Positions 54,354-64,000 of a stretch of 64,000 nucleotides of DNA are shown piece by piece. The notes beneath the pieces are model-generated. The model ran no database searches, had not been told where the DNA came from, and saw nothing but the letters and a program-made list of their open reading frames with translations. The position numbers and the translations under genes are program-made. This DNA is from Sediminibacterium sp. (GTDB taxonomy: Bacteria > Bacteroidota > Bacteroidia > Chitinophagales > Chitinophagaceae), in contig JAOASM010000027.1 of NCBI GenBank assembly GCA_030158665.1, positions 1 to 64,000 of the forward strand, written 5' to 3'. Numbering within the stretch: position 1 is the first letter of the stretch; every line of letters begins with the position of its first letter.

Positions 54354-54701
54354 ATGCTACAAAACAAAACCTTTAAGCAATTTCTTGCGCTAGCGATGCT
54401 AGTGGTTTTTGCATTTAGCATTACGCCACAAAAATCGATTCACGATTTAGTAGCAAAACATATTGATCCAACTAGTTGTTCGGTACATAAGGATTTGCCT
54501 ATTGAGCAAATTGAAAAAACTGAACTGCATTGTACTTTCGATTTTCAAGTAGCCACTACTCCATTTGTGGACTACGATTTTAGTATCCTTATTCCAACGC
54601 CAATTGTTGCCAAAGCGCGCAATGCCTATTTTGTAGCAAAGGCAATTACACAATTATCTATTGTTTCTGACTCTCGTGGTCCCCCTGCTGTTATTTGTTA
54701 G
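54354..54701 (+). CDS. Small secreted protein preceding a TonB receptor
   Basis: The 115-aa protein has an N-terminal hydrophobic segment (FLALAMLVVFAFSITPQ, about 10-26) and three later Cys/His positions (TSCSVHKDL, ELHCTFDF, terminal AVIC). It ends with SRGPPAVIC. I associate short proteins ending in RGPP-type tails with genes just upstream of TonB-dependent receptors in Bacteroidota, but know no assigned function. Metal or ligand binding in the periplasm is conceivable from the Cys/His content. Its stop overlaps the track start of the receptor ORF, and the receptor ATG is 32 bp downstream. Confidence 0.7.
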   Translation: MLQNKTFKQFLALAMLVVFAFSITPQKSIHDLVAKHIDPTSCSVHKDLPIEQIEKTELHCTFDFQVATTPFVDYDFSILIPTPIVAKARNAYFVAKAITQLSIVSDSRGPPAVIC

Positions 54702-54733
54702 GTTTCGATTTTTTTAACAAACAAAACAGTTTT

Positions 54734-56254
54734 ATGAAAAAATATTTAGGTGTATTACTCTTATTGAGTGCGAGTATCGGATTTGCAACAAAAGCGATTG
54801 CGCAACAATTTACATTAACAGGAAAAGTATTTGATAGAGCAACAGGTAAAACCTTAGGAGGAGCAAGTGTCTATCTTCCAGAAATTAAAAAAGGAACGAT
54901 TGCCAATAAAGATGGCGTCTTCACAATCAATATAGAAGCAGGATCGCATGTATTAGAAATTAGTTATGTTGGCTATGCGACTGATGTAGAAAATATCAAA
55001 CTGCAAAAAAACACTACACAAGATTTTTATTTAAATAGTTCGGTACTAGAAGGGGGCAATGTGATTGTCACCAGTTTTTTAAGAGCCACTTCTACCAGAC
55101 GCACACCCACACCGGTGACGATTGTAAAAAAAGAAGAACTATTTAGAGGTGTATCAAGCAATTTAATTGATGCCTTGTCTAAAGTACCAGGTGTCTCTCA
55201 AATATCTACAGGACCCGCCATCTCTAAACCAATCATTCGTGGCTTGGGATACAATCGTGTAGTGGTAATGAATGATGGTATCAGACAAGAAGGGCAACAA
55301 TGGGGCGATGAACATGGTATTGAAATCGACGAATACAATGTTAGCAGAACCGAAGTGTTAAAAGTGCCGGCGTCATTGATTTATGGATCGGATGCCTTAG
55401 CGGGTGTAATCAACATCATCTCTAACGTACCAGTGAGTGAAGGCGTGATCAAAGGAAATGTGTTTTCCAACTATCAAACCAATAACCGCATGATGGGCAA
55501 TCACTTTGATTTAGCTGGAAACAATAAAGGATTTATCTGGGGGATCAACTATAGTGCAAAAAATGCAGGCGATTATAAAAACAAATATGATGGCACTGTA
55601 TTTAATTCAAGATTTTTAGAGCGCAATGGCGGTGGTTATATTGGTATCGAAAAAAGCTGGGGATACTCACAGTTGTCTTTTAGTAATTTTTACCAAAACT
55701 TAGGCATAGTAGAAGGAGATCGTGATGCAGATGGACGATTTATTATGTTGAAAGATGTGGGTGGTATTGCAGAGGAAGTTGTTGTAGATGCTGCAGAGGA
55801 AAAAAGATTTACCCCACGTGTGCCGATGCAAAAAATCCAACACACTAAATATACATTGGATAACAATATCAAATTAGGCAATGACAGATTGAAAGCCACT
55901 TTTGGTTTACAACAAAACCAAAGAATGGAATTTGGCAATGTCTTAGATATAAATGAAAAAGAATTGTTTTTTGATTTAAAAACATTCAACTACGCCATAC
56001 AATATTTACAAGCAGAAAAAAATAATTGGAAAAATACATTTGGTGTAAATGGTATGCGACAAACCAATACCAACCGAGGAGAAGAAGCGCTAGTGCCCGA
56101 TTATACGAGCTTTGATATCGGTGCGTTTTATTATACTCAAAAAAGAACAGAGAAAACAAGTTGGAGCGGAGGATTAAGATACGATCAAAAGTGGATGAAC
56201 TTTAGCAACCCGAATCAATTTGTATGTCCTCCAGGGATGGCTTGTATTGCATAA
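54734..56254 (+). pseudogene. TonB-dependent receptor, 5' part (frameshifted)
   Basis: From the ATG 54734 (MKKYLGVLLL) this frame encodes a signal peptide ending IAQQ, a carboxypeptidase-regulatory-like domain (FTLTGKVFDRATGKTLGGASVYL) and the TonB plug (VSSNLIDALSKVPGVSQISTGPAISKPIIRGLGYNRVVVMNDG). The first barrel strands follow. It then stops at TAA 56252-56254 in the middle of the barrel. The rest of the barrel continues in the +1 frame. The intact protein would be about 800 residues, normal for the family. The ORF track start at 54695 is upstream of the signal peptide and rejected. Confidence 0.85.
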
Positions 56255-57143
56255 TCCAATAGAAAGCAATAGGCAGTTTAATAATATTTCTGGAGCTATC
56301 AGTGTGGCGCATGATGTAAGTGAACAGTTGACATTGAAATTTAATATCGCGCGCGGGTTCCGCGCGCCAAACATGGCAGAGATGGCGTCTTATGGTGCAC
56401 ATGAAGGCACGAACAGATTTGAATATGGCAATGAAGCGTTGATTTCTGAAAAGAGTTTACAATTTGATGCTGCAGTAGAATGGAGCAATGAGCATATGAG
56501 CTTTGCAGGAAATGTCTTTTACAATACCGTAAGTGATTATATCTTTTATCAGAAGTTAACTGCTGTTGGAGGAGGAGACTCTATCATCATGGATCATGGG
56601 GACAATCTCTATGCATTTGCATTCAGACAAAAAGATGCACACTTGTATGGCGCTGAATTCAATGTTGATTTTCATCCACACCCACTAGACTGGCTGCATG
56701 TAGAAAATAGTGTGAGCTTAATCCGCGGACAATTTAAAGAAGCATTGGATGGATCAAAAAATCTACCAGGCATACCAAGTGCAAGATGGTTGTCTGAAAT
56801 AAAAATCGAACTTTTTAAAAAGTCAAAAGCCATCCGAAATAGTTTTATCAATCTACAGTTAGATAATGTGTTTGCGCAAAATCATCCATTTGTAGGTTAC
56901 AATACTGAAACGCGTACACCAGCTTATACTTTATTGAATCTGGGTTATAGTACGCAGATCCAACACCGCAACAAAACCTTGTTTAGCGTTTCCTTAGTTG
57001 GACAAAATGTCACCGATGTGGCGTATCAGCATCACTTGAATCGTTTAAAATATGGTCCAGTGAATGAAGCGACTGGACGCATGGGTGTATTCAATATGGG
57101 TCGCAATTTTAGTTTCAAAGTGAATATTCCTATTGGGAATTAA
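56199..57143 (+). pseudogene. TonB-dependent receptor, 3' part (frameshifted)
   Basis: This frame is open from 56199 and contains the remaining barrel: FNNISGAISVAHDVSEQLTLKFNIARGFRAPNMAEMASYGAHEGTNRFEYG, a hallmark of the family, then strands to the end FNMGRNFSFKVNIPIGN. It has no plausible start of its own; the track proposes a TTG at 56220. Together with the 5' part it makes one receptor for uptake of a siderophore, metal or other ligand across the outer membrane. Coding quality is high on both sides, so the frameshift is recent or a sequencing error. Confidence 0.85.
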
Positions 57144-58506: not shown

Positions 58507-58962
58507 TTATTTTTCATTTGCTAGTTGAAGTGCTGTTTTTATTAACGCATCACTTACTCTAAAATTCGTTGCTTGAATTTTTTCTAAATAAAATTTTAAG
58601 GAATGAATGATACCTAATTCTTTCGCTATAATTAATACTCCAATGCTTCCTGTATATCTTAGTCTCAATAATGTAGTAACTTTTCTTGCTTTTAAATCAT
58701 CGATTATTAAGAATGAATTATTTTTTAACGCGTTCGTGATAATACTAGATTCGCCAGCTCCTAATTTAAAGCGCTTTAAAAAGGATTGTTCTATTTCGTT
58801 CGTCGTTTCTACAACTATCCATGAAGGGATAGATTCATTCAACTCGGATTTAATCTGGGTAGTAATGATAACCTTGCCATAAATTCTTTGCAATAGATGT
58901 AAGGCATTTATTTTATTAAGAATGATTAGTGAACTTGTATCAACGTATACTTTCTCTTGCAT
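58507..58962 (-). CDS. DUF3368 PIN-like toxin
   Basis: The 151-aa protein fits DUF3368, a PIN-domain-like group that pairs with UPF0175 antitoxins. Asp8 (VYVDTSSLIIL), Glu40, Glu71 (LGAGESSII) and Asp88/89 (FLIIDDLKARK) provide the acidic cluster expected of a PIN ribonuclease. RYTGSIGVLIIAKELGII is the typical C-terminal motif. It overlaps the upstream UPF0175 gene by 23 bp, indicating translational coupling. Confidence 0.85.
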   Translation of the reverse strand: MQEKVYVDTSSLIILNKINALHLLQRIYGKVIITTQIKSELNESIPSWIVVETTNEIEQSFLKRFKLGAGESSIITNALKNNSFLIIDDLKARKVTTLLRLRYTGSIGVLIIAKELGIIHSLKFYLEKIQATNFRVSDALIKTALQLANEK

Positions 58963-59182
58963 TGCTTACATCTGATTCTAAATCAGATGCAGGGTAATTG
59001 ATAACTGAGACGTTGTAATTTTTTAGTAAATCCATAAATTCTGAGATAGTGTAACCTGCACTTTTTGCGGCCTGACTCATTGTAAGTCTTCCTGCTTCAA
59101 AAAGTTTAGCAGCAAAAAAAGTCTTTAACTCTTGTTTGTCTGCCTCTAGTTCATCAGGTAATTGTAATTCTATGGTTTTCAT
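58940..59182 (-). CDS. UPF0175 family antitoxin
   Basis: The 80-aa protein matches UPF0175: LQLPDELEADKQELKTFFAAKLFEAGRLTMSQAAKSAGYTISEFMDLLKNYNVSVINY. The segment LTMSQAAKSAGYTISEFMDLL resembles a helix-turn-helix. It would neutralise the DUF3368 protein and may repress the operon. A 12-bp palindrome, ATTAGTACTAAT (59191-59202), lies 8 bp upstream of its start. Confidence 0.87.
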   Translation of the reverse strand: MKTIELQLPDELEADKQELKTFFAAKLFEAGRLTMSQAAKSAGYTISEFMDLLKNYNVSVINYPASDLESDVSNARESIR

Positions 59183-60675: not shown

Positions 60676-60692
60676 TAGTCTAAAAAACGAGG

Positions 60693-60736
60693 GGGTATAA
60701 CATATATGTTATATCAAATGTGTTATACCCTTTTTT
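60693..60736 (+). terminator. Terminator after the M20 peptidase gene
   Basis: GGGTATAACATAT and ATGTGTTATACCC pair (one G-U) around an AT-rich loop, followed by TTTTTT. It lies 18 bp past the stop. Confidence 0.88.
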
Positions 60737-60930
60737 ATACCTTTGTTTAAGCCCTTTCACAATAATTTAAACAAAAGAACGTTTATATCTAACGCGTTGA
60801 TTGTCTTGAATAAACAGACATAAAACGCCCATCAAAAAATCAAAAAATACCCCTTTAAAAATTAGATTTTTTGATATTGTTGCTCTACTTTCGCTGTTCA
60901 ACTTACCCCCCACAAGTTTATTGGAAAAAT

Positions 60931-60999
60931 TAACAGCTAAATACTGTTAAAAAGCATACATAATATATACAAAATAGTATTTTTGTCGTATATTAACAG
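60931..60999 (+). promoter_or_regulatory. Exopolysaccharide operon promoter with TTAACAG sites
   Basis: TATTTTTG (60978-60985) is a full TAnnTTTG box predicting a start near 60992. Upstream, TTAACAG (60931-60937) and CTGTTAA (60945-60951) form a dyad with a 7-nt spacer. A third TTAACAG (60993-60999) lies at the predicted start. The dyad is positioned like an activator site, the downstream half-site like a repressor site. No -33 TTG was found. Confidence 0.5.
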
Positions 61000-61081
61000 T
61001 GCGTCTTATGCACTCAAAATGAGTCACTTAGGCCTATAATGGGACTAAGAAGGGCGGAGCCATACAAAGCCCGCAAACTCC
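60998..61081 (+). ncRNA. Candidate structured leader RNA of the exopolysaccharide operon
   Basis: By hand pairing this leader can form a hairpin AGTGC/GCACT (60998-61002/61010-61014), a second stem CTTAG/CTAAG (61027-61031/61045-61049) and an H-type pseudoknot. In the pseudoknot GGGC (61052-61055) pairs with GCCC (61069-61072) while GGAG (61056-61059) pairs with CTCC (61078-61081). It ends 16 nt before the ATG. I cannot match it to a known riboswitch class; short stems may be coincidental. Confidence 0.35.
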
Positions 61082-61097
61082 AAACAAATTCTGAACT

Positions 61098-63635
61098 ATG
61101 AAATGGATTAAAATTGCCTTATTTAGCTTGAGCATTTTTGCGATGAGCATCCAATCGAATGCGCAAAACTTATTAAGCGGAAAAGATCTAAGTACAATTA
61201 AAGTAGATGCATTAACCGATGCTGAAATTGCACAAATACAAGCGCAGTTAAAGCAAGCTGGTGTAAGCATTGATATGGTAGAATCTCAAGCCATTGCAAA
61301 AGGCATGAGCCCTGCAGAGTTTGCTAAATTAAAAGCAAGACTAAGTGGTGCAAAATCAGGTACTAAATCAGGATCACCACTGACCAAGAAAACCGTTAGC
61401 AAAAAACCAACTTATGAGATTGACAGTACTCGAAAAACATTTGAGAATAAAATCAATCCGTTGATTTATGGATCTGAATTATTTGCTAACGAAAATGGTT
61501 TTGGTGAAAATCAAAATATCGCCACACCAATGAACTATGAAGTAGGCACCAACGATGTGTTGAAGTTGGTGGTGTATGGTGTGCAAGAATACAGTTCGGA
61601 TTTAGACGTGAGCAAAGAAGGAACGGTGTTGATAGAGAATGTAGGCCGTGTAAAAGTAGCAGGCTTGACCATCGAAGCAGCGACCACAAGAATCAGACAG
61701 CAGATGGCCAACACTGCTTATCCAAGCCTAAGAACGGGTGAATCTAAATTGGCCTTAACGGTTGGCGATACAAGAACCATTCAAGTGACCATTATCGGTG
61801 CACAAAGAAGTGGTAATTACAATGTGTCTTCTTTGTCTACTATTTTAAATGCGTTAACAGAAGCAGGTGGTCCGAATGAAATTGGTTCTTACAGAAATAT
61901 TGAATTGATTAGAAACAACAAGTTGTATAAGAAGATCGATTTATACGCTTTCATGCAAAACGGAGATCAATCACAGAATATGGGTTTAAAGGATCGTGAT
62001 GTGATTCGAGTACCAGCCTATAAAGGAAGAGTAGAAATTAAAGGACAGGTAAAGCGTCCAGGTATTTTTGAGATCAACGGCACGGCAGAAAACTTCAATC
62101 AGTTTTTACAATATGCAGGCGGCTTTGATGACACAGCGTATACTGCATGGGTGAAAGTGATTCAAAAGAACGATAAAGAAAAATCGGTAAAAGATTTATC
62201 TGCAAAAGAATTTGCTAGCTACCAACCACAGGGAGGAGACATTATCCAAGTGTCTAAAATTTTAGATCGTTTTCAGAACAGGGTTAAATTATCTGGTGCC
62301 GTATTCAGACCAGATGTGTATGAGTTAACAGAAGGCATGCGCATTAGCGACTTGATCCAAAAAGCAGATGGCTTAAAAGAAGATGCTTATTTGGGCCGTG
62401 CACAGCTGATCCGCTTAAAGCCTAATTTATTAAAAGAATTAGTGAGCATCAATTTAGGCAAGGCATTGCAAAAAGGATCAGAAGAAAATATTTATTTACA
62501 AAGAGAAGACGAATTGTATATTAACTCCATTGTTGATTTAAGAGATTCATTGACGGTAGATTTATTAGGAGAAGTAAGAAGCCAGGGTCGCTTTAACTAT
62601 GTAGATAGTATGACGGTGAAAGATTTAATTTTAATGGCAGGTGGATTCAAGTACGAAGCAAGCAAGCAAGTAGAAGTAGCAAGGTTGGTTAAGTTTGGTG
62701 ATAAAGTAACCGATAACCAAGTAGCGACCATTTTAAAAACAGAAGTGAATGGTGATTTAAGTTTTAATCCAGGTCAAGAGAATTTTGTATTGCAACCGAT
62801 GGACGTAGTAACCATTACTAAAAAAGTTGGTTATACCAATCCAGAAGTGGTCAGCATTACCGGACAAGTACAGAGTGTAGGTAAATATACTTTGAGTACA
62901 CGTGTGGAGCGTGTGAGTGATATTGTAAAACGTGCTGGCGGCTTAATTGGGCAAGCTTATGGAGAAGGTGCTTATATTAAAAGAAGCCGATACAATATAG
63001 ATACTTTAAGATCGGACGAATCAAAGACATCCGTTGAGCAAGCCTATATTAGAAAGTTTAAAGCACAGCAATTATCTGCTAAAGCTGAAATTAAAAATAG
63101 CTTAAACGAAGAGGATGTTTTGGTAGATGCACAAAAGCAAGGCAAGAAGAATTTAAAAGACACGCTTGATATTTTATACAAAGAATTAGAAAACGATTAT
63201 TATCAAATTGCCATTGACATTAATAAAATTATGGATAAGCCAGGTTCCGAACTAGACCTGGTGTTGAGAGACAAGGATGAGATTGTGATTCCAAAAACAG
63301 ATAATCGAGTAAAAATTAGTGGTGGTGTATTGCGACCTACCAATATTGTTTACCGTGATGGATTGACTATTGGAGAATGTATTAGTTCGGCGGGTGGTAT
63401 AAGTGAGTATGCGAGAAGAGGCAGGGCTTATGTAATTTATGCGAATGGTAAAAGCAAAAGAACCATGCATTTTGGCTTGTTTAGAATTAACCCAACCATC
63501 AAGCCAGGTGCCGAAGTGGTATTGCCAGAAACAGATGTGAAAAAAGACAAGCCATTAACTAGCATTATCCAATTCACTACCGTACTAGCACAAATAGGAT
63601 CGGTACTAGCCACATTAGCTATTTTAAATAGATAA
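61098..63635 (+). CDS. SLBB-domain polysaccharide export protein (Wza-like)
   Basis: The 845-aa protein has a signal peptide ending near QSNAQ (residue 23). A charged N-terminal region follows, then the polysaccharide export domain (NYEVGTNDVLKLVVYGVQEYSSDLDVSKEGTVLIENVGRVKVAGLTI, about 145-195). A series of SLBB repeats follows (for example VTIIGAQRSGNYNVSSLSTILNALTEAGG, VEIKGQVKRPGIFEING, VKLSGAVFRPDVYELTEGM, VSITGQVQSVGKYTLS, VKISGGVLRPTNIVYRDG). A C-terminal hydrophobic helix (FTTVLAQIGSVLATLAIL) ends the protein. It would form the outer-membrane or periplasmic conduit for capsule or exopolysaccharide. The Wzz-like gene follows after one base. Confidence 0.9.
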   Translation: MKWIKIALFSLSIFAMSIQSNAQNLLSGKDLSTIKVDALTDAEIAQIQAQLKQAGVSIDMVESQAIAKGMSPAEFAKLKARLSGAKSGTKSGSPLTKKTVSKKPTYEIDSTRKTFENKINPLIYGSELFANENGFGENQNIATPMNYEVGTNDVLKLVVYGVQEYSSDLDVSKEGTVLIENVGRVKVAGLTIEAATTRIRQQMANTAYPSLRTGESKLALTVGDTRTIQVTIIGAQRSGNYNVSSLSTILNALTEAGGPNEIGSYRNIELIRNNKLYKKIDLYAFMQNGDQSQNMGLKDRDVIRVPAYKGRVEIKGQVKRPGIFEINGTAENFNQFLQYAGGFDDTAYTAWVKVIQKNDKEKSVKDLSAKEFASYQPQGGDIIQVSKILDRFQNRVKLSGAVFRPDVYELTEGMRISDLIQKADGLKEDAYLGRAQLIRLKPNLLKELVSINLGKALQKGSEENIYLQREDELYINSIVDLRDSLTVDLLGEVRSQGRFNYVDSMTVKDLILMAGGFKYEASKQVEVARLVKFGDKVTDNQVATILKTEVNGDLSFNPGQENFVLQPMDVVTITKKVGYTNPEVVSITGQVQSVGKYTLSTRVERVSDIVKRAGGLIGQAYGEGAYIKRSRYNIDTLRSDESKTSVEQAYIRKFKAQQLSAKAEIKNSLNEEDVLVDAQKQGKKNLKDTLDILYKELENDYYQIAIDINKIMDKPGSELDLVLRDKDEIVIPKTDNRVKISGGVLRPTNIVYRDGLTIGECISSAGGISEYARRGRAYVIYANGKSKRTMHFGLFRINPTIKPGAEVVLPETDVKKDKPLTSIIQFTTVLAQIGSVLATLAILNR

Positions 63636-63636
63636 C

Positions 63637-64000
63637 ATGATTGAGCAACAACAGCAAATAGACAACGACGAGATTTCTTTAAAGGAATTGATTCAAAAAA
63701 TACAGGAGTGGATCCAGTATTTAAAAACGCAGTGGAAACTCATTTTGGGTATTGCAGCTTTAGGTGCCATCATTGGGTTTGTGTATGCTAGTTTTCAAAA
63801 ACCCAATTACCTAGCAACTACCACATTCGTATTGGAGGAAGATAAAGGTGGTGGAGGATTAGGCGGTGCAATGGGTTTGGCGAGTAGTTTTGGTTTTGAC
63901 TTAGGTGGCGGTGGCGGGGGCTTATTCACTAGCGCCAATATCATTGAATTAATGAAGAGCCGTTTGGTGGTAGAGAAAACTTTATTGAATCCGTTGCAAG
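63637..64000 (+). CDS. Wzz-like chain-length determinant, partial at window edge
   Basis: Only the first 121 codons are in the window. The ATG is one base after the SLBB gene's stop, so the two are translationally coupled. The N-terminus is charged (MIEQQQQIDNDEISLKELIQKIQEW), followed by a transmembrane helix (LILGIAALGAIIGFVYASF, about 37-55) and YLATTTFVLEEDKGGGG. This matches the Wzz/PCP family that controls polysaccharide chain length in the inner membrane. A Gly-rich stretch (GGAMGLASSFGFDLGGGGGG) follows. Whether a tyrosine-kinase domain follows cannot be seen. Confidence 0.85.
   Translation, partial: MIEQQQQIDNDEISLKELIQKIQEWIQYLKTQWKLILGIAALGAIIGFVYASFQKPNYLATTTFVLEEDKGGGGLGGAMGLASSFGFDLGGGGGGLFTSANIIELMKSRLVVEKTLLNPLQ

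Follow-up and report, generated by a model that had tools for sequence, protein, structure and literature searches.

The leader of an exopolysaccharide operon in the window (the whole 64,000-nt stretch of Sediminibacterium DNA analysed) contains a conserved 24-nt element, TGTGACTNAGAWNGGCGNAGCCNT (61040-61063, plus strand), recognised from an exact-consensus scan and from SLBB orthologue loci and hereinafter treated as the ops-like element TGGGACTAAGAAGGGCGGAGCCAT. From sequence comparison we judge, with a probability of about 0.84, that this leader carries an ops-like site at which a NusG paralogue of the UpxY family is recruited, which would enable processive transcription of an operon of at least 16 kb.

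Operon and promoter region

The operon begins with a Poly_export/SLBB (Wza-like) gene (61098-63635, plus strand; 845 aa; PF02563, PF10531, PF22461), followed by a Wzz chain-length determinant (63637-64000, plus strand; 358 aa, extending beyond the window) and by CapD-like, DegT and NeuB genes, all on a single strand over at least 16 kb. Upstream, on the 3' side of an M20 peptidase gene, the inverted repeat GGGGGTATAACA...TGTTATACCC with a T-run behind it (60688-60742) is a probable terminator. Farther away, a UPF0175 and DUF3368/PIN-like gene pair on the minus strand (58507-59182) looks like a toxin-antitoxin module, and a TonB-dependent receptor (54695-57143) is split into two overlapping frames, a Plug part (54695-56254) and a barrel part (56220-57143), by a frameshift or an assembly error.

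A Bacteroidota -7 promoter box of the TAnnTTTG type, TATTTTTG (60978-60985, plus strand), is apparent in the sequence, and 66 of 126 homologous leaders have such a box 5' of the element, where shuffles predict 16. Because the box covers -12 to -5 in Flavobacterium (PMC9723704), transcription would start near 60990. The three TTAACAG sites that a sequence-only reading of this DNA had placed around the box are present, two as written and one as the reverse complement, with the start given there being one base off. TTAACAG (60930-60936) and CTGTTAA (60944-60950) form a TTAACAG-N7-CTGTTAA palindrome (60930-60950, no strand assigned) shared by the closest ortholog, L296, but by no other of the 126 leaders checked; the third half-site (60993-60999, plus strand) overlaps the first transcribed bases and is likewise kept in L296 only. 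Present only in the window and L296, TTAACAG was rejected as a general signal and is treated as a lineage-specific regulator site, the palindrome near -50 being a possible activator site. An ACCCCCC box visible 5' of the promoter (60905-60911, plus strand) is found about 110-175 nt 5' of the element in many leaders of the genus, and ACCCCCC occurs within 320 nt upstream in 18 of 126 homologous leaders versus 1.5 expected; a regulator might act there, 5' of the promoter.

The proposed pseudoknot

The 24-nt element occupies the same bases as a riboswitch-like H-type pseudoknot that had been proposed to govern translation of the SLBB gene. Its pairings can be written out in the single window sequence, GGGC (61052-61055) with GCCC (61069-61072) and GGAG (61056-61059) with CTCC (61078-61081), but they are neither conserved nor above shuffled expectation. 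The fold of the leader has a z-score of -0.37, with 72 of 200 shuffles folding equally well, and among 52 leaders of the genus both stems are possible in 4, compared with 3.97 when the downstream sequence is shuffled. In L296, mismatches (A-C, C-T) disrupt stem 2, and all that is left of stem 1 is three G-U pairs and one G-C pair. A comparison with Rfam returned no match to the window at threshold, only sub-threshold chance matches (E 0.67-5), and the leader shows neither the Rfam match nor the conserved pseudoknot that would place it in a known riboswitch class. Since fold z-score, Rfam, shuffles and L296 all speak against the pseudoknot, and its bases belong to an element conserved beside many unrelated genes, we reject it and give riboswitch control next to no credence: the leader element is not a riboswitch. 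What survives of the earlier proposal is that an exopolysaccharide operon has a regulated leader here, that the promoter is of the Bacteroidota type and that part of the leader is conserved and bears evidence of base pairing.

Conservation and distribution of the element

In a DNA search of relatives, a short common block turned up 20-140 nt 5' of the start codon of orthologous SLBB genes, and a pattern search of 151 genomes (75 places inspected) found the same block 5' of unrelated genes: beside SLBB/Wza exporters it precedes genes for Wzz, CapD-like epimerases, ABC transporters, nucleotidyltransferases, a lipoprotein and a winged-helix-like protein. As an unbiased check, 30 loci chosen by SLBB protein similarity were scanned for the block. 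It is present in 23/30 at up to 2 substitutions and in 26/30 at up to 4, as opposed to 0/30 and 1/30 for the reversed control, leaving 4/30 loci without the element in the scan at up to 4 substitutions; these counts, like all counts of the element given here, are drawn from related sequences and hence are not independent. The window copy itself departs from the consensus in having GGGACT instead of GTGACT and an A at +1.

Scanned for exact matches to the pattern GTGACTNAGANNGGCGNAGCCNT, 84,980 genomes yielded at least 119 sites, where chance would give about 7.5 (2 x 257e9 / 4^18). Among the exact matches listed, the majority are from Bacteroidota, including Chitinophagaceae, Flavobacterium, Sphingobacteriaceae, Pontibacter, Lutimonas, Salinimicrobium, Arenibacter and others, with few outside the phylum. 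The element precedes exopolysaccharide operons throughout the genus, in Flavobacteriaceae, Sphingobacteriaceae and Pontibacter, and in another Bacteroidota class. In a phylum sample of 198 genomes, 28 places in 23 genomes match with up to 2 mismatches (reversed control, 6); further matches in this sample again lie 5' of genes for WecA-like proteins, LegC-like aminotransferases, nucleotide-sugar dehydrogenases and export. Among the matches is the variant form TGTGACTGAANGNGGCGAAGCCGT of family f36, which lies outside the class of the window; it precedes WecA-like, LegC-like and export genes.

Among the matches listed, a few Acidobacteria and Planctomycetes also carry the element. Copies in two Acidobacteria MAGs and one Phycisphaerales MAG (L164, L171, L229) lie beside NusG-paralogue genes, those of the two Acidobacteria encoding PF02357 proteins. 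Because of these adjoining genes, the copies were re-classed as probably real, and they would reflect transfer, misbinning or an older origin. Exact matches in Aureimonas, Rhodococcus, Curvibacter and Pseudoxanthomonas sit inside long frames and were discarded as chance.

Pause register and hairpins

The final 12 nt of the element, GGCGNAGCCRTG, align gap-free with the ops sequence of E. coli, GGCGGTAGCGTG, with the same length and the same pause register. Position 23 of the element, the predicted pause position -1 (61063, plus strand), is T in 52/52 leaders of the genus, whereas its neighbours vary; it lies outside the search pattern and remains invariant (39/39, binomial p ~2e-18) after similar leaders are dropped. 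In the same 52 leaders, G-10 is found in 52, G-11 in 45 and G at +1 in 31. The core thus follows, within an untranslated leader, the G-11G-10...Y-1G+1 register of the ops class, with A at +1 in the window. Counting the invariant T as -1 puts the two Gs at -11/-10 and the preference for G at +1, and the core fits the consensus pause, as does E. coli ops (PMC7819879; PMC6391919); the pause consensus and non-template recognition are carried over from E. coli.

On the non-template strand of the predicted paused bubble, GGC-GGA-GCC (61053-61061, plus strand) could form a mini-hairpin with a GNA loop. The general form, GGC-GNA-GCC, occupies G-11 to C-3 and encloses GCGNAGC. DNA mini-hairpins of exceptional stability are formed by d(GCGAAGC) and, as a wider class, by GNA or GNNA loops closed by two G-C pairs (PMC4686876). 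The outer pair covaries among the 52 leaders (G-C in 41, A-T in 7, G-T in 1, a G-A mismatch in 3), giving, as in the ops class, a small hairpin with covariation or a stable loop. The loops are GAA, GGA or GTA, with GNNA in two relatives (L311, L312); outside these classes are AAC in L296 and TAT in L298, both of which keep the GGC/GCC stem and T-1. The leader of L296 also contains a perfect 6-bp helix, GGCAAC/GTTGCC, with a 10-nt loop, which overlaps the mini-hairpin and was not seen in other relatives.

Immediately upstream, the MFE fold contains a nascent-RNA stem-loop, CTTAG (61027-61031) with CTAAG (61045-61049) (61027-61049, plus strand), the 3' arm of which lies within the element. Upstream arms pair with GTGACTNAG above shuffles (12.3 vs 10.09 +/- 0.13), and the fit favours the native variable base over others by 85:25 leaders, figures that are less independent than they appear, as the sequences are related. 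The enriched stem-loop is variable in sequence, its 5' arm being unconserved and absent from some leaders.

This stem-loop enrichment and covariation, together with the ability of the mini-hairpin sequence to fold as RNA as well, would also suit an element that acts as RNA, with UpxY or another factor binding the nascent stem-loop and the GNA mini-hairpin with no need of a pause or of non-template DNA, much as LoaP associates with an RNA hairpin (PMC12691694). The invariant T, 10 nt past the first G of the mini-hairpin and flanked by variable neighbours, instead fits a pause position -1; the 5' arm of the stem-loop has no sequence conservation and is missing in some leaders; and the nearest solved relatives of the partner protein are RfaH. 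We therefore regard a LoaP-like RNA-binding mechanism as unlikely and less likely than recognition of DNA in a paused complex.

Linkage to UpxY-family NusG paralogues

The downstream genes of the matches listed (102 scanned) include 34 UDP-sugar dehydrogenases, 22 Poly_export proteins and 9 UpxY-family NusG paralogues; apart from UpxY, the next genes mostly serve polysaccharide synthesis or export. Counting both sides, a UpxY-like ORF accompanies 48/119 listed loci, 47/119 within about 1.2 kb and usually adjacent: directly 5' of the element in Flavobacterium, directly 3' in Ferruginibacter, Pontibacter and others. Pontibacter anaerobius has two element copies 52 nt apart 5' of its UpxY gene (L330/L336, G347:C8:310437-310512). 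In the phylum sample, UpxY-type NusG paralogues above the family cut-off are encoded by 109/198 genomes, namely 21/23 element-bearing versus 88/175 other genomes (Fisher p = 1e-4), and 2/23 element-bearing genomes have none above cut-off. With NF033644 (UpxY family, cut-off 100 bits), six of seven proteins score 132-145 bits and one 93.5, with the RfaH, LoaP and NusG models all under their own cut-offs. The element is thus associated with a NusG paralogue, as in the ops class.

The genome of the window carries a second copy of the element, with 2 mismatches (C8:27222), 53 nt 5' of a UpxY gene assigned by NCBIfam. Nearly all well-assembled genomes of the genus hold exactly two NusG-type genes, NusG and a UpxY-type paralogue of about 175 aa. 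Full reading of the locus in two genomes places the paralogue with a tail-specific protease gene on one side and mtaB on the other, at a distance from polysaccharide genes; such a location points to UpxY acting in trans. In the window assembly (89.6% complete), a search for this trans-acting locus gave only mtaB paralogues, and the organism presumably encodes the trans-acting UpxY.

UpxY gene linkage far above expectation also bears on a reading in which an exopolysaccharide regulator, for instance the linked winged-helix-like protein, uses the element as its double-stranded DNA operator and the element is no elongation signal. Strong sequence conservation and the copies 5' of a winged-helix-like gene would suit an operator; the location of the element 3' of the promoter box, the base-pair covariation and the ops-type pause spacing would not, and we hold this explanation to be very improbable.

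A model for UpxY recruitment

The features of the leader, and what RfaH and UpxY are known to do, make a stall near 61063 and recruitment of UpxY the most likely course of events. Starting near 60990, RNA polymerase would pause at 61063, where GG at -11/-10 and T at -1 make up a consensus elemental pause. The GNA mini-hairpin would then form from GGCGNAGCC, the non-template strand exposed in the bubble; the conserved GTGACTNAGA would be part of the upstream duplex and, as RNA, supply the 3' arm of the stem-loop just behind the polymerase. UpxY would bind the paused complex, remain attached and suppress pausing and termination, so that transcription would reach the end of the exopolysaccharide operon, which measures at least 16 kb. 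Within the genus, UpxY would usually be a single gene in a housekeeping locus, acting in trans on one to few operons; outside the genus, the UpxY gene adjoins the element.

An ops-like element for UpxY is covered by neither Rfam nor JUMPstart. Our searches of the open literature found no description of the motif and no UpxY targets outside Bacteroides, and overlap with the supplement of Saba 2024 is possible. In the literature searched, a recognition target of UpxY outside gut Bacteroides is thus unreported, and the element gives a likely target sequence, predicts which operons are under the UpxY of each genome and supplies a leader feature so far missing from annotation. The regulon of a trans-acting UpxY becomes directly testable, for example in Flavobacterium johnsoniae. 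The combination of a consensus pause and a tiny DNA hairpin suggests that the solution found in E. coli ops evolved more than once or is ancestral.

Comparison with known systems

Like the EAR/epsC RNA of Bacillales, which is tied to processive antitermination (PMC2864571), the element lies in an exopolysaccharide leader; EAR/epsC is a larger structured RNA, whereas the leader studied here has no Rfam match. As with LoaP and the dfn hairpin, a NusG paralogue would be recruited in the leader of a long operon, but LoaP binds the dfn RNA hairpin without a pause (PMC12691694), whereas the element has pause-type spacing and an ops-like core.

The closest parallels are with E. coli ops/JUMPStart and RfaH. 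Both cores are 12 nt long and have GG at -11/-10 and TG at -1/+1; both contain a small hairpin whose loop is closed by a G/A position, along with a C-G pair, and have a stem-loop just upstream; and both lie in leaders of long polysaccharide operons, with a NusG paralogue as the partner, predicted in our case. The ops hairpin of E. coli has C3:G8 and G4:A7 pairs (PMC6391919). By sequence, its loop also belongs to the GNNA class; the GNA loop of our element is one nucleotide shorter, has no flipped T6 and sits on a stem of up to three G-C pairs. In further contrast to JUMPStart, the conserved upstream part is TGTGACTNAGA, and RF01707 (JUMPstart RNA) speaks against JUMPstart membership: at its gathering score it hits 0/61 genomes of the genus and nothing in the window, the E. 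coli control being positive. The partner also differs from RfaH in scoring as UpxY and under the RfaH cut-off.

With the UpxY and capsule leaders of Bacteroides, reportedly described in Chatzidaki-Livanis 2009 and Saba 2024, the system shares the protein family, which there acts in the leader to antiterminate capsule operons. Saba 2024 is said to show UpxY recognising paused polymerase through non-template DNA and the upstream duplex, with RNA hairpins assisting. Each UpxY of Bacteroides is dedicated to its own operon and is accompanied by UpxZ inhibitors, whereas here one motif is common to several families and, within the genus, would be served by one trans-acting UpxY.
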